In this document: positions 4,054 through 17,166 of the stretch, one piece after another
Numbering within the stretch: the stretch's first letter is position 1
Layout: every line of letters begins with the position of its first letter
Source: Allomuricauda sp.
Lineage (GTDB): Bacteria > Bacteroidota > Bacteroidia > Flavobacteriales > Flavobacteriaceae
DNA length: 39,425 bases
NCBI RefSeq assembly: GCF_028282265.1
Contig: NZ_JANQIH010000151.1
Span: 1-39,425, forward strand
Direction of reading: 5' to 3'
Made by a program: the position numbers and the translations under genes
The notes under the pieces: generated by a model
The model's database searches: none
Told to the model about the DNA's origin: nothing
The model's input: only the letters and a program-made list of their open reading frames with translations

Positions 4054-7000
4054 TTATCTATTTATGTATAACCAATCGGTTCTAGGTGATGAACCATCAC
4101 CCAAATCCAGTACATAATAATAGGTGCCCACAGGTAGCTGTTGGCCCTTCTGAACTACGGCCCTTCCATTGGAGGTACCGTCCCAATCATTGTTATAAGA
4201 GCGTTGTTCGAACACAATAGTGCCCCAACGGTTATAGACCGAAAGCACATTGTTGGGGTATCGGGAAATACAGTCTATCGTGAAAGTCTCGTTGACCCCA
4301 TCTCCATTTGGTGAAAACTCATTGTAAACCGTTAGGCACGAAGGCTCAACAAAAGCATCAGCGGTGTTGTTGGTTTCATCAATATCAAACTGGTCGACAA
4401 ATGAAAGACTTGCAATATTGAGATAGGCATCTTCATCCAATACTTCAACGGTCAAAGTCAAGATTGCCGTTTCCGATGGCATTAATTGGTCCATTTCCCA
4501 AAAACCTGAAGACTCATCATAAACCCCGATATCAACCTGTGAGGTAATCAATCGATAGCCCAAAGGGAGTACCTCTTCAATACCAACATTGGTAGCGATT
4601 GAACTTCCTTGATTGATTATGGTAATAGTAAAAACTACTTCGTCTCCAATGGTAGGTTCAGGATTGTCCACTACTTTGGAAAGGCTTATATCCACCGTTT
4701 GTGGTGTGACTTGAACCGTGGCCTCATCATCATCTGGGAGACCATCATTCAAATCATCTTGGTCCAGACTGGTATTGGGATTACTATCAGGGTCTGCAAA
4801 ATCGCTAGAAGTGATTTCGGCCACATTCAAATATTCGTCGGTATTTCCGGTAGGTGGATTTACGGTAACCAAAACAATTAAAGTCTCGGTAGTTCCATCG
4901 GGAATAGATCCATTGATAGACCACAATCCCGTTGAGGGTTGATAAATTCCGGCCGTTGCAACGCCTGATTGATACGCAAACCCTTCCGGAAGCAAATCGC
5001 TGACCACAACTCCGGTGGCATCACTCGCTCCGTTGTTTGTTAGATTCAAGGTAAACTCGATTACGTCCCCAACGTTTGGTGTCGGATTATCCACAGTTTT
5101 GGTCAAAGACAAATCTGCCAGTCCATTCGGGATCGGGACCACAGAATCCTGATCATCTTCGGAAATCAAATTGTTGTTCGGTGTAGAATCTGGGTCAAAG
5201 GTGTCCATCGCTATCAATTCGGCGGTATTGGCATATATTCCATTTTGAAGCACAGTCACAGTAATTTGAAGCGTTTCAGTGCTCCCATTTCCCAGACTTG
5301 CCAATGCCCAGGCACCTGTTACGCTATCATATGTACCTGATGATGGTACCGCTGACACAAAAGTGTATCCTGAGGCTATCACATCTTCAATTACCAAGTT
5401 GGTAGCGTCATTCGGGCTAGCATTATTGGCAGTTATGGTGAACGTAATCTGATCGCCAACGGGAGGGTTTAGGTTGTCTACCGTCTTTGTAATGGATACA
5501 TCGGTCAATATTCTTGGAGAAGTGGACTGTTCATCTTGGTCATCCTCAGAAAGTATGTTGTTTCCAGGGGTGGAATCAGGATCTGGTTGAATCGCCGAGA
5601 TGACCTCAGCAACGTTGGAATAATCTCCGGTGGGATTTGCCTGTACCGTAATATTCAAGACTGATGTGCTTCCTCCGATCATGGTTCCAATATTCCACTC
5701 CCCCGTGGCAACCGAATAACTCCCAGCTGAATCATCTGAGATATAGGTATAACCAGATGGTAATGGGTCCGACACTACCACACCGGTCGCATCACTTGGG
5801 CCATCATTGGTGACGGTAAGCGTAAAGGTTACATTATCCAAAACATCGGGAAACTCGTTGTCAACTGTTTTTTGCAGACTCACATCCGCTGAGGGTAGTG
5901 GGGTTGTTCCCGCTATATCTTGATCATTTTCAGCTAGAACATTGTTATTAGGGGTTGAATTAGGGTCAAGATTATCCGAAGCAAAAACCTCCGCTACGTT
6001 AAAATAGTCACCTGCCGGATTCACCAATGCAGTAATATTTAAGGTTTCGGTAGTCCCATTGGGGATTGTGCCATTCAGTTCCCAAATTCCACTAACAGGG
6101 TCATAAACTCCTGCTGTTCTTGAATTGGAAACATAGGTATAGCCTGAAGGAAGTAGGTCGAGAACTTCCACTCCCGTGACATCGCTAGGGCCGTCATTAC
6201 TGATACTGACATTAAATATTACTTCTTCACCCACGAAAGGAGATAAATCGTCAACAGATTTTCGCAAGACTAAATCTGACACCAAAACCGGAACAGGGTT
6301 GATGGTTTGCTGGTCATCTTCGGTGCCATCATTATTGGCCGGTTGTGAATCAATATCAGTTTCGTTTACATCCGTCAACTCGGCTGTATTGGTGTAATCC
6401 CCAGTGGTTAAGACGTTTGCAGTGATGCTTAGTGTTTCGGTGACGCCATTGGCCAGATTCCCTACCGTCCATGAACCGCTCAAGGCGTCATAAAGCCCTG
6501 TAGAGGGAGTGGAACTGACAAACGCATATCCTGAAGCCAAGACATCGGTTACCACAACATTGGTAGCGTCACTCGGGCCATCATTGGTAACGGAAACGGT
6601 AAAAACAATAGGGTCACCCACATTTGGGGTCAAGTCATCAGCTGTTTTGGTTACGGAGATATCCACTATTTGTACAGGATTTACCAAGGCATCGTCCTGA
6701 TCATCTTCTGCTAGAATTCCGTTGTTTGGTGTGGAATCAGAATCGGTTTGGTCTTGAGCTGTTATTTCAGCAACATTGGTGAAAACCCCTGTCGTATTTA
6801 CGGTCGCCGTAATATTCAAAGTTGCTGAAGCTCCATTGGCAAGGTTTCCTACTGTCCAGATTCCCGAGGTATTGATATAAGCTCCTGCACCATCATCTGA
6901 GTCATAGGCAAACCCAGAGGGTAGCTGGTCGGTTATTAAAACATTGGTTGCATCACTAGGCCCATCATTGGTTACTGTAAGTGTAAAGACCACATTCGTA

Positions 7001-8460
7001 TTGACATTAGGATTCGGATTGTTCACATCTTTTGTTAGGGAAAGGTCAACGATAGATACCGGGGTGAGAACCACATTACCTTGGTCATCCTCAGAAGATA
7101 CCCCATTGGCAGGAGTGGAATCAATGTCGAAAGCGTCTGAAGCTATAACCTGTGAAGTATTGCTATACAAACCGGAAGCATTGACCAGTACATTAATGAC
7201 CAATCGTTCGGAAGCTCCATTCAAAATGGTGCCTACCTGCCAAATTCCTGTCGTTTCGTTGTAAACACCAGAAGTAGCGGTGTAGCGTACAAAGTTAAAT
7301 CCTGATAGTAGCTGATCCACCACTTGAACATTGGTAGCATCGTCAGGGCCACTGTTGGTTACTGTAATTTCAAAACTTATTTCTTCCCCGACGTTTGGGG
7401 TCAAGTCATTGCCCACAACGACTTTTACCAAAGACAGGTCAGCTTGTTGGGGCGATACAGTGATGGCATCCTCATCATCCTCACTCTGGTCACCATCATC
7501 GTTATTGGGAAGACTGTCTGAATCGAATTGATCAATACCCGTAACTTCAGCGATGTGGGTGAATTCTCCAGCCGTCCCTGTAGGTGTCAATACGGTTGCA
7601 TTGAAGGTAAGGGTAACCGTATTTGTTCCCAAGGGCACATTAAGTCCAGTCCACGTAATGGTCCTGGTTCCAGAAGCAAAAGACCCTCCATTGGTAATAG
7701 CGCTGATACTGCCATAACCTAGGGGCACTAAATTGGTGACCGAAACCCCAGTGGCACCGACATCGCCCAAGTTGCTTAGATTAACGGTGAACGTAACGAC
7801 ATCACCAATATCAGGCGTGAGGCTGCTGGCTGATATATCCAACTCCAAATCAACACCGGAAAAGGCAATGGCTACAACGTCGGATACCGCTGGGCAAGTT
7901 CCGTTATCAACCGTCCACTGAAAAAAATACGTGCCCGGCATGGCTCCGGTAACCTCTGTTGCCGGATCATTATCATTTGCGAAACTTATCAAATTGGGGC
8001 CTGAGAGTTGTGTCCATGTCCCAACGCCAGAAGCCGGAGCAGTAGCATTCAAAAAAACTGATGTCAATTGATTTAAAGTTTGGTCAGACCCTGCATTGGC
8101 GGTGACCGTAGGCTCGACGGTAATGACGACATCATCAAATACTGGAGTGGTATCGGTACAGATGGCACTTAATCGAAAGGTGTAGGTGTTTCCACCGATA
8201 AATCCGCTAATTTCTGTAGTAAGGTCAGTGGTATCATCAATGGTAATGACCGGGCCACCGATTTGAGACCAAGTGGGGCCTGTAAGTACAGAACCTGTAG
8301 TGGAGCCAGCCAAATTGTAAGTGCCCAAATTTTCGCATATAGTCTGTGCTGAGCCAGCACTGACCGTGCAATTTTGTGAAAAACCAAAATACCCACAGAA
8401 TACAAAACATAATACGCTTATGAAAAGGCTTCTTTTGAGGTTGGCCCGAAGTAAATTCAT
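4054..8460 (-). CDS. Large secreted DUF11-repeat adhesin-like protein with gliding-motility-associated (T9SS type B) C-terminal domain
   Basis: Signal peptide; nine DUF11-like repeats (e.g. VDLSLTKDVNNPNPNVNTNVVFTLTVTNDGPSDATNVLITDQLPSGFAY); C-terminus LTVYNEFSPNGDGVNETFTIDCISRYPNNVLSVYNRWGTIVFEQRSYNNDWDGTSNG matches type B CTDs. Confidence 0.92.
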   Translation of the reverse strand: MNLLRANLKRSLFISVLCFVFCGYFGFSQNCTVSAGSAQTICENLGTYNLAGSTTGSVLTGPTWSQIGGPVITIDDTTDLTTEISGFIGGNTYTFRLSAICTDTTPVFDDVVITVEPTVTANAGSDQTLNQLTSVFLNATAPASGVGTWTQLSGPNLISFANDNDPATEVTGAMPGTYFFQWTVDNGTCPAVSDVVAIAFSGVDLELDISASSLTPDIGDVVTFTVNLSNLGDVGATGVSVTNLVPLGYGSISAITNGGSFASGTRTITWTGLNVPLGTNTVTLTFNATVLTPTGTAGEFTHIAEVTGIDQFDSDSLPNNDDGDQSEDDEDAITVSPQQADLSLVKVVVGNDLTPNVGEEISFEITVTNSGPDDATNVQVVDQLLSGFNFVRYTATSGVYNETTGIWQVGTILNGASERLVINVLVNASGLYSNTSQVIASDAFDIDSTPANGVSSEDDQGNVVLTPVSIVDLSLTKDVNNPNPNVNTNVVFTLTVTNDGPSDATNVLITDQLPSGFAYDSDDGAGAYINTSGIWTVGNLANGASATLNITATVNTTGVFTNVAEITAQDQTDSDSTPNNGILAEDDQDDALVNPVQIVDISVTKTADDLTPNVGDPIVFTVSVTNDGPSDATNVVVTDVLASGYAFVSSTPSTGLYDALSGSWTVGNLANGVTETLSITANVLTTGDYTNTAELTDVNETDIDSQPANNDGTEDDQQTINPVPVLVSDLVLRKSVDDLSPFVGEEVIFNVSISNDGPSDVTGVEVLDLLPSGYTYVSNSRTAGVYDPVSGIWELNGTIPNGTTETLNITALVNPAGDYFNVAEVFASDNLDPNSTPNNNVLAENDQDIAGTTPLPSADVSLQKTVDNEFPDVLDNVTFTLTVTNDGPSDATGVVVSDPLPSGYTYISDDSAGSYSVATGEWNIGTMIGGSTSVLNITVQANPTGDYSNVAEVISAIQPDPDSTPGNNILSEDDQDEQSTSPRILTDVSITKTVDNLNPPVGDQITFTITANNASPNDATNLVIEDVIASGYTFVSAVPSSGTYDSVTGAWALASLGNGSTETLQITVTVLQNGIYANTAELIAMDTFDPDSTPNNNLISEDDQDSVVPIPNGLADLSLTKTVDNPTPNVGDVIEFTLNLTNNGASDATGVVVSDLLPEGFAYQSGVATAGIYQPSTGLWSINGSIPDGTTETLIVLVTVNPPTGNTDEYLNVAEITSSDFADPDSNPNTSLDQDDLNDGLPDDDEATVQVTPQTVDISLSKVVDNPEPTIGDEVVFTITIINQGSSIATNVGIEEVLPLGYRLITSQVDIGVYDESSGFWEMDQLMPSETAILTLTVEVLDEDAYLNIASLSFVDQFDIDETNNTADAFVEPSCLTVYNEFSPNGDGVNETFTIDCISRYPNNVLSVYNRWGTIVFEQRSYNNDWDGTSNGRAVVQKGQQLPVGTYYYVLDLGDGSSPRTDWLYINR
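4400..7900 (-). repeat. Protein-level tandem repeat array (nine DUF11-like units) within the adhesin CDS
   Basis: Recurring 'DLSLTKxVDNxxPNVGDxVxFTLTVTNDGPSDATGVVVxDxLPSGY' units separated by acidic 'DxDSTPNNxxxEDDQD' linkers. Confidence 0.85.
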
Positions 8461-8856: not shown

Positions 8857-9756
8857 ATGAAAAACGTAGTCAGGGTAATTACCAAAGTGTCATTTTTTCT
8901 TATCACACTTTGCTTGGGAACAATTAGTGCCCAAGAAAATCCAGCTGAAAACAGATCATCAATAACGATTACCGATCCCATTGGCACAACGGTTTGGGAG
9001 ACCTCAGAGTTGGCAGAATTACATTGGACCACCAAAAACATGGATACAACCAAATTCATCCGATTCTTTTTGGTTCGAAATAAAACCATGGTGCAAGAAT
9101 TGGGCAGATTCCAAAATAATGGACATGCTTCAGGAATCAGACTTGCTAAAAATATTGGTTCCGGCAATAGCTATCAAGTAATGGGGATTGAACTATTCCC
9201 CGATAATAAAGAACAGGTAGCTAAGTTTGCGACTTCTTTTTTCACAATTAAGAACAAGGAATCCGATGAGCGAAAGCGACAGGCCCTATTGGCGCGAGAC
9301 AACCAAGACCTATCAAACAAGGAAAAGAAGAAAGAAAGAAAGAAATTAAAGAGGGCAGCCACATTAGCTGCGGAATCCACACCAAAATTGGATAACACAT
9401 TCCCAAAAGAGTTCGACGGGCGCAGAATTTCTTATGTCAAAAATTTAGCCTTTGAAAGTGAGCATTTAACGGTAAAAGTTTGGGATCATGACAAAGAGGA
9501 TGGTGATATTATTTCCATCTATCTCAATGGAGATTTGGTTTTGTCTGAACACCTATTGACTAAGGATTTACAAGAATTTGATATTCAGTTGGACCCAACA
9601 AAGCCCAATGATCTTCTATTGTACGCACATAATCTGGGGGAAGTTTCACCTAATACCGTTTCGGTAGAAATTACAAGTAGCCTCAAATCTGAAAAAATGA
9701 CCTTGAACTCTTATCTAAGAAGCTGCGAAGCGGTTCTCATCAACGTAAAAAAATAA
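8857..9756 (+). CDS. Secreted hypothetical protein with charged central linker and two predicted beta domains
   Basis: Signal peptide (MKNVVRVITKVSFFLITLCLGTISAQ); N-domain resembles Ser/Thr-rich GPI-anchored (Kre9/KNH) fold (ITDPIGTTVWETSELAELHWTTKN); KKKERKKLKR linker; C-domain LTVKVWDHDKEDGDIISIYLNGDLVLSEHLLTK. Confidence 0.7.
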   Translation: MKNVVRVITKVSFFLITLCLGTISAQENPAENRSSITITDPIGTTVWETSELAELHWTTKNMDTTKFIRFFLVRNKTMVQELGRFQNNGHASGIRLAKNIGSGNSYQVMGIELFPDNKEQVAKFATSFFTIKNKESDERKRQALLARDNQDLSNKEKKKERKKLKRAATLAAESTPKLDNTFPKEFDGRRISYVKNLAFESEHLTVKVWDHDKEDGDIISIYLNGDLVLSEHLLTKDLQEFDIQLDPTKPNDLLLYAHNLGEVSPNTVSVEITSSLKSEKMTLNSYLRSCEAVLINVKK

Positions 9757-9790
9757 ACCTCAACAATTCTTTTGAAGAAAGCTGAGGTTT
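9746..9790 (-). terminator. Rho-independent terminator for tRNA-Leu (minus strand)
   Basis: Inverted repeat AAACCTCA (9755-9762) / TGAGGTTT (9783-9790), followed on the minus strand by a T-run (rc of 9746-9753); overlaps the stop codon of the 8857 CDS. Confidence 0.7.
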
Positions 9791-9795
9791 AATTG

Positions 9796-9877
9796 TACCT
9801 TGGGTGGGAATCGAACCCACACTCCCGAAAGAACTGCATTTTGAATCCAGCGCGTCTACCAATTCCGCCACCAAGGC
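9796..9877 (-). tRNA. tRNA-Leu (anticodon CAA)
   Basis: RC folds as GCCTTGG TG GCG..CGC G CTGGA TTCAAAA TGCAG (variable arm) GTGGG TTCGATT CCCAC CCAAGGT A; class II variable arm; 3' CCA not encoded; G30-G40 mismatch in the anticodon stem. Confidence 0.88.
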
Positions 9878-9878
9878 A

Positions 9879-10127
9879 TTATTTCAATTTATCTCTAAGT
9901 TTTCGGAGTTTTTCTTTTCCTACTCCAGATTTCCAATACTTTTCCCTTTTTCTGCCCAAATCCCTATTATCACAGTTTTCTGAGTAAATCAATTTAAAAG
10001 GTGCATAGGGTTTAGTTGTTTGCTCCCATCCCCTATTGTGTCTATTAAGCCTTTCTTCCATATTTGATGTCATCCCTACATAAATGTAGTTGAAATCGAA
10101 ACTCGATATGGCATACACAATTATCAA
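9879..10127 (-). CDS. GIY-YIG nuclease family protein
   Basis: 82 aa: MIIVYAISSFDFNYIYVGMTSNMEERLNRHNRG...RKREKYWKSGVGKEKLRKLRDKLK; GIY-YIG-type core (VYAI..YIYVG, R/H, E). TTG start; an in-frame TGA lies just upstream; stop codon ends 1 nt before the tRNA 5' end. Confidence 0.85.
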   Translation of the reverse strand: MIIVYAISSFDFNYIYVGMTSNMEERLNRHNRGWEQTTKPYAPFKLIYSENCDNRDLGRKREKYWKSGVGKEKLRKLRDKLK

Positions 10128-10144
10128 AACAATATTTCAGCGCG

Positions 10145-10164
10145 CCTGCCTGTCGGCAGACAGG
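10145..10164. repeat. Short palindromic insertion 1 (CCTGCCTGTCGGCAGACAGG)
   Basis: Hairpin CCTG-C-CTG-TCGG-CAG-A-CAGG interrupting the tRNA-Leu fragment. Confidence 0.8.
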
Positions 10165-10178
10165 TCTACCAATTCCGC

Positions 10179-10197
10179 CCTGCCTACCGCAGGCAGG
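10179..10197. repeat. Short palindromic insertion 2 (CCTGCCTACCGCAGGCAGG)
   Basis: Perfect 7-bp arms CCTGCCT/AGGCAGG with 5-nt loop; sequence-related to insertion 1; interrupts the same tRNA fragment. Confidence 0.8.
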
Positions 10198-10239
10198 CAC
10201 CAAGGCTTTTGAGAGGTCCTCATTTTTTAAATGGGACTG

Positions 10240-10267
10240 CAAAGCTAAAAAATAATTTCATTTACAA
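10240..10267 (-). promoter_or_regulatory. Bacteroidota sigma-A-type promoter (TTG-N17-TAGCTTTG) upstream of the tRNA-Leu fragment
   Basis: Minus strand TTG (10267-10265), 17-nt spacer, TAGCTTTG (10247-10240), matching TTG/TAnnTTTG. Confidence 0.65.
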
Positions 10268-12703: not shown

Positions 12704-13390
12704 TCAGAATACCCTAAACTCGAACACCCCAGAATCGGAACGATTTCCTTCACCGTCAGTGGTAACCACCCTCCAGTAGTAAATTGTGTTGGATTGAACA
12801 CTAACTGCCAACTCTCTGGTGAGCCCATCTAAATTGGCTTCGGAAGTCAAAGGCGGATTCTGATCAGAGAAAAACACTTCGTAAGAGACAATGTCATTTT
12901 CGACATCGGCCCCTATCCACTCCAAAATTACTTCGTTTGAAACACTCTTTTGGACCGTGGAGCCCGAAACCGGCCGGACAAGCTGTGCTGGAAAGGGGGG
13001 ATACGTGGTTTGCGAACCTGCATTGTAAAACAGCCATACTTCACTAACGGTTTGACCAGAATTTGGGTTTATAGAAGTAACGGTCCATGAATAGGGCGTG
13101 CCCTTATTAATAGACAAACTTGCTGAAGTTGATGTTGTAGTTATGGTTTGCGCGGAGTTTGTATTCAAATTAACTGCGCTCAGAAGATAACTTTCCGTAT
13201 TTGAGGAAGCCCCCCATTCAAAGGTGACCTGACTTAACTCTTCGCTTAGACTTTCACCTGTTGTGCATTCTGAGTTCTGTAAAGGAAAAACCAATTGAGC
13301 CGCACCAGGTGCCGCAGGCGAATCATCACCACCCCCGCAGGAAGACAAAAGACCCAAAAACGTTATGAAACACCAAAAATGCCTTGTCAT
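12704..13390 (-). CDS. Lipoprotein with fibronectin-III-like segments
   Basis: Lipobox LLSSC followed by GGGDD; FnIII-like VILEWIGADVENDIVSYEVFFSDQNPP..YYWRVVTTDGEGN; ATGA overlap with the upstream metalloprotease. Confidence 0.75.
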   Translation of the reverse strand: MTRHFWCFITFLGLLSSCGGGDDSPAAPGAAQLVFPLQNSECTTGESLSEELSQVTFEWGASSNTESYLLSAVNLNTNSAQTITTTSTSASLSINKGTPYSWTVTSINPNSGQTVSEVWLFYNAGSQTTYPPFPAQLVRPVSGSTVQKSVSNEVILEWIGADVENDIVSYEVFFSDQNPPLTSEANLDGLTRELAVSVQSNTIYYWRVVTTDGEGNRSDSGVFEFRVF

Positions 13391-16300
13391 CTTTTGATCA
13401 TTTTAAATTCTTTATTGATTTGGGCACCCCTTACCCTCATATAATAAGCACCAGGGGGTAGGGCCGAAAAATCCATTTCAAGCTCATTTCCACTAACCGT
13501 TTTAGATTCCGTAAGAACAAGTCTACCGTCCGTGGAAAAAACCTGAATATCAACGTTTCCTATTTCACTGCCAATAAAAATTTTGGTATTTGCCCCAACA
13601 GGATTGGGATAAAGAATTCCATCCAAGGATAGACGGAAAGTGCTTTCAAACACCCCTTGGCATGGAAGGTTCGTAAACACTTTTAGTGTGTTCAAACCTT
13701 CTTTTAGGTCTACCTGAAAATTTGACTCTTGAGTTTGCTGCACCAGACCATTAAGCTCAACATTGTACAGACTGCCTCCTTGCATGGTTAACAGAACAGC
13801 CCCTTCTTGTTGAACTGCGGAAACGCTAAGGCCCTCGGGCTCTGAAATAATGATATCGAAACAAGTTTCCTTGTAGGTGATTGAACCATCAGTTGCTACT
13901 ATGCAAAGGGAATATGTTCCGGCAGTCAAATTTTGATAGGTGTGGGTATCGTTAAAATTTGCATCAATTGAATTTCTAGCTCCATCCAGTGTAGCGGTAT
14001 AAGCCAAAGCTGTATTAGTTGTTGATATTGCAATGGACCCATCATTACTTGCTCTACAAGACTCACTTTGAATCTCCACCAAAAAATTATCAGTTGGGAG
14101 ACGATTGACCGGACATCCACTGGTATCCACCTCAACACCTAAAGGAGTACCCAAACAAAGATCATCACCATCATCAAAAACACCATCTCCATCAGCATCA
14201 GGCCTAAGTGTCCCCTCAACACAGATTTGCAGGGAAAAATCAACCAAAGAACCCCCATCTCCCGCAGCGGTATCCTGAATTTCAAGGGTCCATTCCCCCA
14301 AGGAAGACTCCCCCTTGAATATATCGAAAACCCCAACTGGACGAACAGTTCCAGAGATAGCTGGATTATTGGAACACGATATTTCAGAAGCCCCATCCTC
14401 AAAAACTGCATTGACATCATCAAACTCTCCACAAGTGTTGGAAAGAATTATGTTCTCAGTCCCAGAAGGCGAAATAAGTCTTACAACTAAATCGCCCAAG
14501 AAGGTATGTTCCAAGTTCATGGAGAGGCTTACATCAGAAACACTAAAGTCTTCAGGTACCGTTACTGTGGTAGAAACCGTATTTGGCGTTGATGAAGCTA
14601 TTGTCAATGGTAACCCAATGGGAACATAGCTTCTACAATCCACATTGATTGTTGTAAAACTTAATGGCGTACTAAAAGAGCCCGAACCACAGCCGTTACT
14701 TGGGCGAACCCTCCAAAAATATGGTGTCGCCGCATTCAAATTTGAAGGTGTGTACGAGCTAAGCGGAAGAGTTGCCGACTCCACAATATTCGAAAAGCCA
14801 GCATCCGTTGCTATTTCAATATCGTAACTAGGGTACCAGGAATTTTCCTCCCAGCTGAATTCTGCTCCAAGGGAAACATTGGTTTGCCCATTTGATGGAG
14901 AAGTCAATACTATGTCTGCAAAATTACTATCAAGAATAGCCAAATTTATGATGATCTCCTTTGTCTCTGAGGCCGACGTTGAGGTAATAGTAACAGGATA
15001 GATTCCAGGTGACACTGCATTGGTGTCCGAAATGGTAAGTTCAACGGAAGTATCGTCAGCGCTGGCCTGTGTGGGAGAAAAGGAAGTTCCTAAACCCACG
15101 GGAGCATTTACCGAAAAGGTGGATGTTTCACTAAATTCTGCAAAGGTTTGATACGTAAATGGAATTATGATATTACTTGGCTGGCATACTTCAAAATTCA
15201 ACTCATCAAAGTTCAAAACCACCGGCGATTCTTGAATCGTAAAATTCGAAGAGTTCACTGCAAAGAAAACATTATCGCCTGCTTTGACCATGATTCGAGC
15301 CACAGCAGTGGCATTGCCTGGTAATTGAACCTCCGTACTACCATCGTTGGGAGTTCCTTGCACCAATGTTATCGGAAAGGTGTTTCCCCCATCAACACTT
15401 AAAAAAATGTCAACAGTTTGCGCATTTATAGGGGAAGTATTAGTATTTGCCACGTCCCAAGTAACTTCTTGTATGCTCCCTGCTTCATAAGTTTCGCTTG
15501 ACTGCTGGGAGGTCACAATAAAGGGTCCCGCCGTGTCTAAAACACTTACTGTTAAAATATCGGACACCACCTGCCCCCCACCAGTAGCATTGTCTCGAAC
15601 AGTTAAGGCAAAGTTGAAGTCCTTACGAATATTTGAAACCGTTTCCCAAGCACTGCTCAAACCCGGATTGACCTGGGTTAAATTCCCTTGGGCGACTTCA
15701 GACAAACGAGGAAAATACCTTGTAGGTTCAATTGAAGGAGGTAAAGATCTAAAGTTGGCCCCGACTGGATTTTCTGGACCAAAAACATTAAAGGGAACTA
15801 TTCCATCATCGATTTGTTCCCAAGTATAGGTAAGAATATCGGCCACATCATTATCGGAAGCAACGCCTTCAAGTACAAATGCCGTTCCTATGGGAATTGA
15901 ATAATCCCCAACTGGTGTTACTACGGGAGGTTGATTGGTCAAGGCAGACGTCTCCCCGCAAACTATTGTAGATAAATAGTTTCTTATTTGTAATATGCTG
16001 TTGTAGTGATAATAGTCATCACCATCGGGTTCGACATTGTTATTCCCTGTGATACCAGCATACCCCATGATTGTCGTACCACTACCCGGTTCGGCTTGTA
16101 CTCCACTGGCCTCAGATATTTCGTTCCAAGACCAGGTATGGTTAGCTCCAAATTGGTGACCAAGCTCATGGGCGACATAATCTAAATCGAAGTTATCTCC
16201 AGAAGGTTCAAAAGCCGAAGCAAACGCCCTTCCTTTTAGACCGTCCCTACAAACTGTTCCAATACCACCCGCATTTCCATTATCTTGGCCTTGGTTCACT

Positions 16301-17166
16301 TTGTTGAACAAGTGACCAACATCATAATTCGCCTCACCTATCTCAGAGGTTAAGGTAGCCTGCACTTCAGAACCCAACGGGCCTCCCATGTAAGGGTCGG
16401 AAGTTGGGTCTGTAAAAATAACAAGGTCATTATTTGCAATCAACTCCAAGGTGACCCCCAAATCCGTTTCAAACACCGCATTAACCCTGGTTAAAGTCTT
16501 ATTTATTTCAGCTAAGGCATCCGCTACGGTCCCTCCATGGTGAACTGTATATTCCCCCGTGGTGGAAACAGCAATCCTAAATTTTCTTAGTATCTGGTCA
16601 TCCACCAATGGCACGATGGTCTTTTCAACCGATTGTTGTATTTTTTCAGTTTCGCAGGCAAACGCTTGCTTGACCGAAGCAGCGCTTCTATCATAAATCA
16701 CGTAAGACCCCTTTCTATTGGAAACCGATTCCATAAAGGATGTTTTTCCTCCCTCCAAGGAAACAATCATACTCTGAAGTCCATGGTGCGAACTACTCAA
16801 TTTTACACGATACTTTCCATCAAGGCTTCTTCCCGTGTACGATTTTATTTCCGGATACTTTTTTGCCAAATCTGGATGAAACACAGAGGTTTCTTTAAGT
16901 AGAAAGGGGACAAAATCTCCCTTCGCATGAGGAAGATAAATGACAGTATCGTCCTTACCATTAATAGGTATTTCGTTGAGCTTTTTTTGGAATACGTCTT
17001 CCTGAAGTTCAAACACTTGATGCTTCTTCTTTTCAATATTGGAAAGCGAAGGACTTTTCAATTCAGAGGTAGTTGAAACAACTTGCCAATAATCATTTTG
17101 GGCAAATAAGCAAAAGGAACTAAAAAATATGGAAATTGAAAAAACAAGATGTAATTTAGCTTTCAT
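13387..17166 (-). CDS. Secreted reprolysin-like (M12B) zinc metalloprotease with proprotein-convertase P domain and T9SS type A sorting domain
   Basis: HELGHQFGANHTW zinc motif and TTIMGYAG Met-turn; P domain (LEHTFLGDLVVRLISPSGTENIILSNTCGE..GEWTLEIQDTAAGDGGSLVDFSLQIC); C-terminal LYPNPVGANTKIFI...GAYYMRVRGAQINKEFKMIKR. Confidence 0.92.
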   Translation of the reverse strand: MKAKLHLVFSISIFFSSFCLFAQNDYWQVVSTTSELKSPSLSNIEKKKHQVFELQEDVFQKKLNEIPINGKDDTVIYLPHAKGDFVPFLLKETSVFHPDLAKKYPEIKSYTGRSLDGKYRVKLSSSHHGLQSMIVSLEGGKTSFMESVSNRKGSYVIYDRSAASVKQAFACETEKIQQSVEKTIVPLVDDQILRKFRIAVSTTGEYTVHHGGTVADALAEINKTLTRVNAVFETDLGVTLELIANNDLVIFTDPTSDPYMGGPLGSEVQATLTSEIGEANYDVGHLFNKVNQGQDNGNAGGIGTVCRDGLKGRAFASAFEPSGDNFDLDYVAHELGHQFGANHTWSWNEISEASGVQAEPGSGTTIMGYAGITGNNNVEPDGDDYYHYNSILQIRNYLSTIVCGETSALTNQPPVVTPVGDYSIPIGTAFVLEGVASDNDVADILTYTWEQIDDGIVPFNVFGPENPVGANFRSLPPSIEPTRYFPRLSEVAQGNLTQVNPGLSSAWETVSNIRKDFNFALTVRDNATGGGQVVSDILTVSVLDTAGPFIVTSQQSSETYEAGSIQEVTWDVANTNTSPINAQTVDIFLSVDGGNTFPITLVQGTPNDGSTEVQLPGNATAVARIMVKAGDNVFFAVNSSNFTIQESPVVLNFDELNFEVCQPSNIIIPFTYQTFAEFSETSTFSVNAPVGLGTSFSPTQASADDTSVELTISDTNAVSPGIYPVTITSTSASETKEIIINLAILDSNFADIVLTSPSNGQTNVSLGAEFSWEENSWYPSYDIEIATDAGFSNIVESATLPLSSYTPSNLNAATPYFWRVRPSNGCGSGSFSTPLSFTTINVDCRSYVPIGLPLTIASSTPNTVSTTVTVPEDFSVSDVSLSMNLEHTFLGDLVVRLISPSGTENIILSNTCGEFDDVNAVFEDGASEISCSNNPAISGTVRPVGVFDIFKGESSLGEWTLEIQDTAAGDGGSLVDFSLQICVEGTLRPDADGDGVFDDGDDLCLGTPLGVEVDTSGCPVNRLPTDNFLVEIQSESCRASNDGSIAISTTNTALAYTATLDGARNSIDANFNDTHTYQNLTAGTYSLCIVATDGSITYKETCFDIIISEPEGLSVSAVQQEGAVLLTMQGGSLYNVELNGLVQQTQESNFQVDLKEGLNTLKVFTNLPCQGVFESTFRLSLDGILYPNPVGANTKIFIGSEIGNVDIQVFSTDGRLVLTESKTVSGNELEMDFSALPPGAYYMRVRGAQINKEFKMIKR

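Follow-up and report, generated by a model that had tools for sequence, protein, structure and literature searches.

The unit in the tRNA-Leu(CAA) gene of this Allomuricauda genome probably belongs to a widely distributed family of minimal homing-type mobile elements that insert in bacterial tRNA genes and re-supply the displaced tRNA end, cleavage by the encoded nuclease being the presumed step. As read from the DNA, the unit consists of one GIY-YIG ORF of 80–90 aa and a copy of the tRNA end displaced by the insertion. Comparison of sites and relatives demonstrates the insertion, the reconstitution of the tRNA, the patchy occurrence and the nuclease clades linked to the target tRNA, and homing would be the most economical account of them. 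An earlier note on the window (the whole stretch of 39,425 nucleotides that was analysed, contig NZ_JANQIH010000151.1) had proposed that a nuclease ORF with a replacement tRNA 5′ half had inserted in the tRNA gene and kept the tRNA functional. The comparisons that could have refuted this core proposal support it; homing driven by the nuclease is the part that we infer.

Organization of the tRNA-Leu locus

On the minus strand, the locus reads as a displaced 5′ part of tRNA-Leu, an 82-aa GIY-YIG ORF and a complete tRNA-Leu(CAA), and the sequence, ARAGORN, the ORF and its Pfam match place these three pieces where the earlier note had put them. The displaced copy (10138..10206, minus strand, 69 nt), delimited from the sequence and by alignment, begins at nt 1 as had been claimed, and it extends to nt 30, not nt 29. 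It consists of tRNA nt 1–9 (10206-10198), palindrome 1, CCTGCCTGCGGTAGGCAGG, behind nt 8/9 (10179..10197), tRNA nt 10–23 (10178-10165), palindrome 2, CCTGTCTGCCGACAGGCAGG, behind nt 23 (10145..10164), and tRNA nt 24–30 (10144-10138), all on the minus strand. The two insertions that the earlier reading had removed from the copy are palindromes and a constant part of the arrangement. In the window, the displaced copy had an alignment score of 43 compared with at most 24 in 100 shuffles; because of this score, and because the layout recurs at the corresponding site in three related species, at a tRNA-Ala of this genome and at about 100 other tRNA genes, it is not a chance match.

The single-domain GIY-YIG nuclease ORF (9879..10127, minus strand) has a TTG start and was identified by Pfam, by an alignment of 51 relatives and by a structure model. 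Its stop codon ends at 9879 and nt 1 of the tRNA is at 9877, so that one base (9878) separates them, in agreement with the earlier reading. The complete, rebuilt tRNA-Leu(CAA) occupies 9795..9877 on the minus strand (ARAGORN; Rfam RF00005, 51.2 bits), and its nt 1–24 (9877-9854) are a repeat of the displaced half. Between the repeats of the window there is the 82-aa ORF alone and no integrase gene, which rules out a tRNA island of the integrase type.

The tRNA-Leu gene has an element, TAGCTTTG (10240..10247, minus strand), which we take to be a −7 promoter element of the Bacteroidota type; it was read from the sequence and lies in a stretch that is conserved before the tRNA in the uninserted sites of the genus. 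In the window, this promoter now precedes the displaced half, the ORF and the complete tRNA. A probable terminator of the tRNA gene, AAACCTCA ... TGAGGTTT and then ATTTTTTTTA, was read from the sequence at 9755..9790 on the minus strand, and it was missed by the terminator scan, probably owing to its long loop. At position 9837 of the window, nt 41 of the tRNA-Leu is a G, so that the anticodon stem has a G31.G41 mismatch; C is found there in the genomes of the genus that were retrieved for comparison, and an assembly error is possible. Two large genes of the window are unrelated to the element and were read from their translations only: one for a repeat-rich surface protein with a C-terminal domain of the gliding-motility type (4054-8460), and one for a large putative secreted metalloprotease (13387-17166).

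Filled and empty sites in the genus

Orthologous sites were located with the tRNA gene as query against 60 other Allomuricauda/Muricauda genomes, and the neighbourhoods were retrieved. The arrangement prs, promoter, tRNA-Leu was recovered in 49 distinct genomes. Four of these sites are filled (the window, G032, G027 and G057) and 45 are without the insert. A single tRNA behind the same promoter is the rule in the genus (43 of the 45), and the empty sites that the earlier note had called for are thus found; the remaining two, in G028 and G008, have the tRNA with a large island. Compared with their empty neighbours, the filled sites of G057 and G027 align, with no long gap, exactly as far as tRNA nt 24; an insert of about 310–320 bp follows, and the alignment resumes at the start of the complete tRNA. 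The core of the insert is flanked on both sides by tRNA nt 1–24 as a direct repeat. The earlier note had placed the insertion within the anticodon stem; the sister comparisons move the junction to a point after nt 24, at the end of the D-loop, and nt 25–30 are a short remnant. After insertion, the resident nt 1–24 remain behind the promoter, the ORF follows, and nt 1–24 of the element are joined to the resident or co-transferred remainder, with a complete tRNA gene retained.

On a tree of the neighbouring prs gene, filled sites are dispersed, and well-supported branches force at least three changes. The genus contains orthologous empty and filled alleles with a patchy distribution on the species tree, which is one of the features of homing endonuclease elements. 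The genome of the window has a second case at tRNA-Ala(GGC), with a broken 5′ copy bearing a palindrome, the ORF and a complete tRNA, in which the ORF stop codon TAG is formed by tRNA nt 8–10. No tRNA was found near the nine other GIY-YIG matches of this genome.

The two island-bearing sites, L045 (G028:C1:1456736-1456874) and L060 (G008:C1:744948-745080), show the same tRNA-Leu with a different kind of element. A 5′ half (nt 1–44 and 7–43, respectively) is followed immediately by a complete, divergent tRNA-Leu of the GCCTCGG type, and the 3′ half (29–82) lies about 67 kb or 10 kb away. These islands bring a whole replacement tRNA. At a Tamlana locus, L146, such a whole-tRNA-replacing element and the GIY-YIG unit are both present.

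Characteristics of the GIY-YIG protein

The ORF matches Pfam PF01541 with 54.9 bits against a cut-off of 22.6 (E=1.1e-14). In the alignment of 51 sequences, Y5, Y16, R26 and E62 are invariant and H30 is nearly so, and the 82-aa protein thus has both the fold and the catalytic Tyr, Tyr, Arg and Glu by which the GIY-YIG superfamily is defined. The structure model is a single domain with a pLDDT of 96, and the nearest solved folds are those of UPF0213, SLX1 and the catalytic domain of I-TevI. In terms of sequence, the closest solved relatives are UPF0213 proteins (best solved matches 1ywl and 1zg2). The protein resembles the UPF0213-type single-domain proteins in size, fold and best solved matches, but the other GIY-YIG proteins of similar size in the same genome lie away from tRNAs and form a separate branch of the protein tree, apart from the tRNA-linked family (SH-aLRT 98). 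Values of dN/dS are about 0.05–0.25 in most pairs of nucleases, and this sequence measure demonstrates selection on the protein.

The nuclease tree, which was built from only 83 columns and in which many forks are poorly resolved, groups by target tRNA and layout, with 29 changes compared with 57 after shuffling (0 of 200 shuffles). Clades that track the target tRNA are what recognition of the tRNA gene by the protein would predict.

Distribution and layouts beyond the genus

A profile made from five such proteins gave 37 matches in the genus and 308 in a species-wide genome collection, the best 80 of which were taken. The resulting 110 loci are nearest relatives chosen by similarity, many come from metagenome assemblies, and the layout calls rest on ARAGORN. 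A complete tRNA on the same strand lies beside the ORF in 101 of the 110, behind it in 80 and in front of it in 21; the remaining nine have tRNA pieces around the ORF or reach a contig end. Apart from two tandem-array loci of one genome, which have displaced tRNA pieces only, we found no ORF relative that lies apart from tRNA sequence. Hosts come from many families of Bacteroidota and from Ignavibacteria, Fidelibacterota and several lineages of Patescibacteria. Because this set had been selected by similarity, a random sample of 297 Bacteroidota genomes was taken, with E<=1e-24 as the threshold for members. Members were present in 24 of the 297 genomes and in 22 of 141 genera, and 28 of their 30 loci lie beside a same-strand tRNA. 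The random sample adds Arg(CCT), Arg(TCT), Ser(GCT) and Cys(GCA) as targets, together with more cases at Leu(GAG) and Leu(CAG); the ORF family has been found at Leu, Arg, Ala, Ser and Cys tRNAs.

Two layouts were observed. The order in the 5′ form is broken 5′ part, ORF, complete tRNA. The 3′ form is its mirror image and consists of the complete tRNA, a terminator-like stretch, the ORF and the broken 3′ part, and it often has the terminator in duplicate. The displaced piece is thus on the far side of the ORF, as a 5′ part upstream or a 3′ part downstream, and small GIY-YIG ORFs with a truncated copy on the far side, which the earlier note had suggested looking for, were found in Bacteroidota, Ignavibacteria and Patescibacteria. 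The displaced copy scored above all 100 shuffles in 89 of 98 loci of the nearest relatives and in 22 of 23 of the random sample. At several loci the reading frame runs into the tRNA and is closed by a TAG or TGA of the tRNA.

In Dokdonia pacifica (L104), the displaced half keeps the Dokdonia acceptor stem GCCGAAA, and the complete tRNA has GCCTTGG paired with CCAAGGT. At L099, the displaced and complete copies similarly have different, internally compensated acceptor stems. These stems fit replacement by foreign DNA from another lineage. Tandem copies of the unit are common, as a break-inducing nuclease would promote. The array at L245 has five copies that are 98–100% identical with a period of 450 bp; it lies behind a tRNA-Leu(CAG), which is itself preceded by a broken 5′ half with no ORF. 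No plasmid or annotated phage was found to carry the unit. Only one viral contig has a family member (L252, IMGVR_UViG_3300028786_000154, 1-380); this contig opens with the member, followed by a hairpin-broken 3′ part of tRNA-Leu, and is probably the host edge of a provirus.

Palindromes in the displaced copies

Inserts in the displaced copies were detected in 98 loci with an alignment that scores only the continuity of the tRNA. At least one clean insert, usually a palindrome of 19–20 nt, was present in 92 of the 98 loci. Among the 122 inserts, 71 are exactly 20 nt long and 108 have a stem of at least 6 pairs. The insertion points are nt 8/9, 14/15 and 23 for the 5′ form and, in most cases, nt 61–66 for the 3′ form, which are the borders of helices and loops in the cloverleaf. 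The 64 different inserts have a mean stem of 6.25 compared with 4.06 in shuffles (combined p about 1e-31).

Palindrome 2 of the window has the same sequence at each of the four filled sites of the genus and accounts for 27 of the 122 survey inserts. Palindrome 1 is inverted in G032 and absent in G027 and G057. The type of palindrome varies by lineage. The main palindrome is absent from 38 of the 61 genus genomes and has 1–9 sites in the others, and some of its other copies lie within further hairpin repeats (such as CTGAGCG^AAGTCGAAG). In another lineage the palindrome is CCCCGAC-NNN-GTCGGGG; it occurs once per genome, is confined to the element, and differs in the loop between two species with the stem kept. 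These low copy numbers rule out that the palindromes are a general REP family of the host. At L002, L003 and L011 of the same genome as the window, GIY-YIG genes that are not tRNA-linked adjoin REP-like hairpins such as TCATTCCTGCGAAAGCAGGAATC and CTGAGCGTAGTCGAAG, and small GIY-YIG genes may be linked to palindromes more widely; common REP repeats adjoin the genome's other GIY-YIG genes at only 2 of 20 sites.

In the predicted RNA fold of the window's displaced copy, the two palindromes base-pair with one another, and the D-arm lies between them (−45 kcal/mol, z=-4.9). Removal of the hairpins in silico lowered the predicted formation of the acceptor stem of the complete tRNA from 0.91 to 0.00 in the window, and from a median of 0.56 to 0.28 over the 5′ form (p=0.0008); an equal-length control cut also lowered it, to 0.37 (p=0.08 against the natural sequence). 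In the 3′ form, the folding test showed nothing of this kind, as the terminator was ignored.

Some loci depart from the common pattern. At L107 (a Croceitalea MAG, contig CALGQU010000162.1) and L210, the sole full-length tRNA-Leu(CAA) at the locus bears the palindrome at nt 23; a hairpin-broken 3′ half is on a second contig, and no intact tRNA-Leu(CAA) was found in the MAG. At L176:486-712 (G057:C1), a hairpin-broken 5′ half of tRNA-Leu(TAG) stands directly before the complete tRNA with no ORF between them, an arrangement that, as judged from the sequence, is an ORF-less relic or a non-autonomous form.

Proposed homing and alternative explanations

If the unit homes, the nuclease would recognise and break the uninserted tRNA gene, and repair would copy the element in, with the conserved tRNA sequence providing homology on both sides. 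The hairpins may lock the displaced half away and so prevent it from pairing with the 3′ half of the tRNA, for which the folding test provides thermodynamic support in the 5′ form only. The main difficulty for homing is that the rebuilt tRNA still looks like the target, and the donor allele seems to keep its presumed target. The complete tRNA of filled alleles is the same or nearly the same as the tRNA of empty sites, only the displaced copy being disrupted, and no sequence change that would make the donor tRNA resistant was seen between filled and empty alleles. Resistance of the donor may come from the flanks, from dosage, from nicking or from structure. It also counts against homing that the nuclease tree is poorly resolved, that a single viral contig, and no plasmid or annotated phage, was found to carry the unit, and that the protein is a bare GIY-YIG domain; homing enzymes of the I-TevI type have a separate DNA-binding part.

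The retained target and the bare domain also favour the view that the unit is a passenger, which spreads between genomes when conserved tRNA loci recombine in the ordinary way (for instance through natural transformation), and that the protein has a house-keeping or structure-specific role on DNA unrelated to breakage of tRNA genes. Its closest relatives, UPF0213 by sequence and UPF0213 and SLX1 by fold, agree with such a role. A passenger would have no need to adjoin tRNA genes. Members of this branch nevertheless adjoin one in nearly every case, none of the nine further GIY-YIG matches in the genome does so, and the nuclease clades follow the target tRNA; we therefore regard the passenger view as unlikely. 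The presence of SLX1, a structure-specific nuclease, among the nearest folds could also mean that nuclease and hairpins form their own system, like REP sequences and RAYT transposases, in which the nuclease acts on hairpins and the hairpins enter the loops of tRNA-like and REP-like structures. The inserts at helix/loop borders of the tRNA, their strong excess of palindromy and the nesting of the same palindrome in other hairpin repeats agree with this. A REP/RAYT system has many dispersed hairpins per genome that are mobilised by a linked enzyme, and the low copy number of the palindromes and the change of palindrome type among lineages make it quite improbable here.

It is very improbable that the nuclease cleaves the tRNA itself and that the transcribed, hairpin-bearing half is an RNA decoy or antitoxin, with the pair kept by addiction. 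The very stable fold of the displaced half between the tRNA promoter and the ORF would suit such a role in the 5′ form, but in the 3′ form this half sits behind the ORF and a terminator-like stretch, and DNA is the substrate of the GIY-YIG enzymes that have been characterised. The two relatives with large islands (L045, L060) do have partial and complete tRNA-Leu copies in tandem, and the fragment could in principle be what remains of an old array of tandem tRNA-Leu genes separated by an unrelated ORF, the objection that the earlier note had raised against itself. This origin is contradicted by the uninserted relatives: the promoter leads into the displaced half at filled sites and directly into the sole tRNA at empty ones. 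The same ORF family is also placed alike at Leu, Arg, Ala, Ser and Cys tRNAs, and the array origin has almost no likelihood left. GIY-YIG intron nucleases are a known class, as are group I introns in tRNA genes, which would suit a degenerate group I intron that lies in the tRNA-Leu gene and bears a GIY-YIG ORF. Introns in bacterial tRNA genes have been described (PMC3984707). The tRNA is complete, contiguous (ARAGORN) and on one side only, and Rfam found no intron, which rules this candidate out; the insert position also differs, in the D-loop in one form and in the T-arm in the other, and we consider the intron reading scarcely conceivable.

Relation to known systems

For the proposed homing into tRNA genes, in which the element replaces the end that it displaces, the nearest parallel lies in the mobile endonuclease ORFs of fungal mitochondria, which create gene hybrids in atp6 of Allomyces macrogynus and in atp6, atp9, cox2 and nad3 of Glomus (PMC3630166). 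In both cases, an endonuclease ORF enters a gene with a foreign copy of the end that it displaces, the resident end becomes a relic, and the distribution is patchy, with horizontal transfer. The fungal ORFs replace the 3′ end of mitochondrial protein genes, whereas the present unit is found in bacterial chromosomal tRNA genes, at either end, with an ORF of only about 82 aa and a hairpin in the relic. The Seg nucleases of T4-type phages, above all SegB, are likewise small, free-standing GIY-YIG nucleases beside tRNA genes (PMC2988022, PMC13096335), and SegB is known to promote the inheritance and tandem amplification of a tRNA segment. Tandem amplification comparable to that at L245 is promoted by SegB of phage T6 (PMC13096335). 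Unlike the present unit, seg genes are intergenic and of phages, split no tRNA, supply no replacement end and have no hairpin-bearing displaced copy. Integrative islands share the tRNA gene as the site and the restoration of a tRNA end by the element. They carry integrases and classically restore the 3′ end; the present unit has no integrase and is about 300 bp.

No account of small tRNA-linked GIY-YIG genes in bacteria was found in the open-access literature, and an earlier description elsewhere is possible. We consider it an evenly balanced proposition that these genes represent a class of tRNA-gene parasites that has not been described and that crosses phyla. In such a class, a bare GIY-YIG domain would home into many tRNA genes, at one end or the other, and supply the lost end anew; it would need the hairpin of the displaced copy (for insulation of the tRNA precursor or for self-protection) and would have tandem amplification as a second route of spreading. 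tRNA genes are the landing sites of large integrase islands and of self-splicing introns. A unit of about 300 bp that splits and rebuilds an essential tRNA gene with no splicing meets the same problem in another way, and it is possibly among the smallest autonomous mobile units of bacterial chromosomes. It explains puzzling partial tRNA copies, and it has parallels in the SegB-driven amplification of tRNAs in phages and in the mobile ORFs of mitochondria. With uninserted and inserted alleles in culturable marine Flavobacteriaceae, the model is directly testable.
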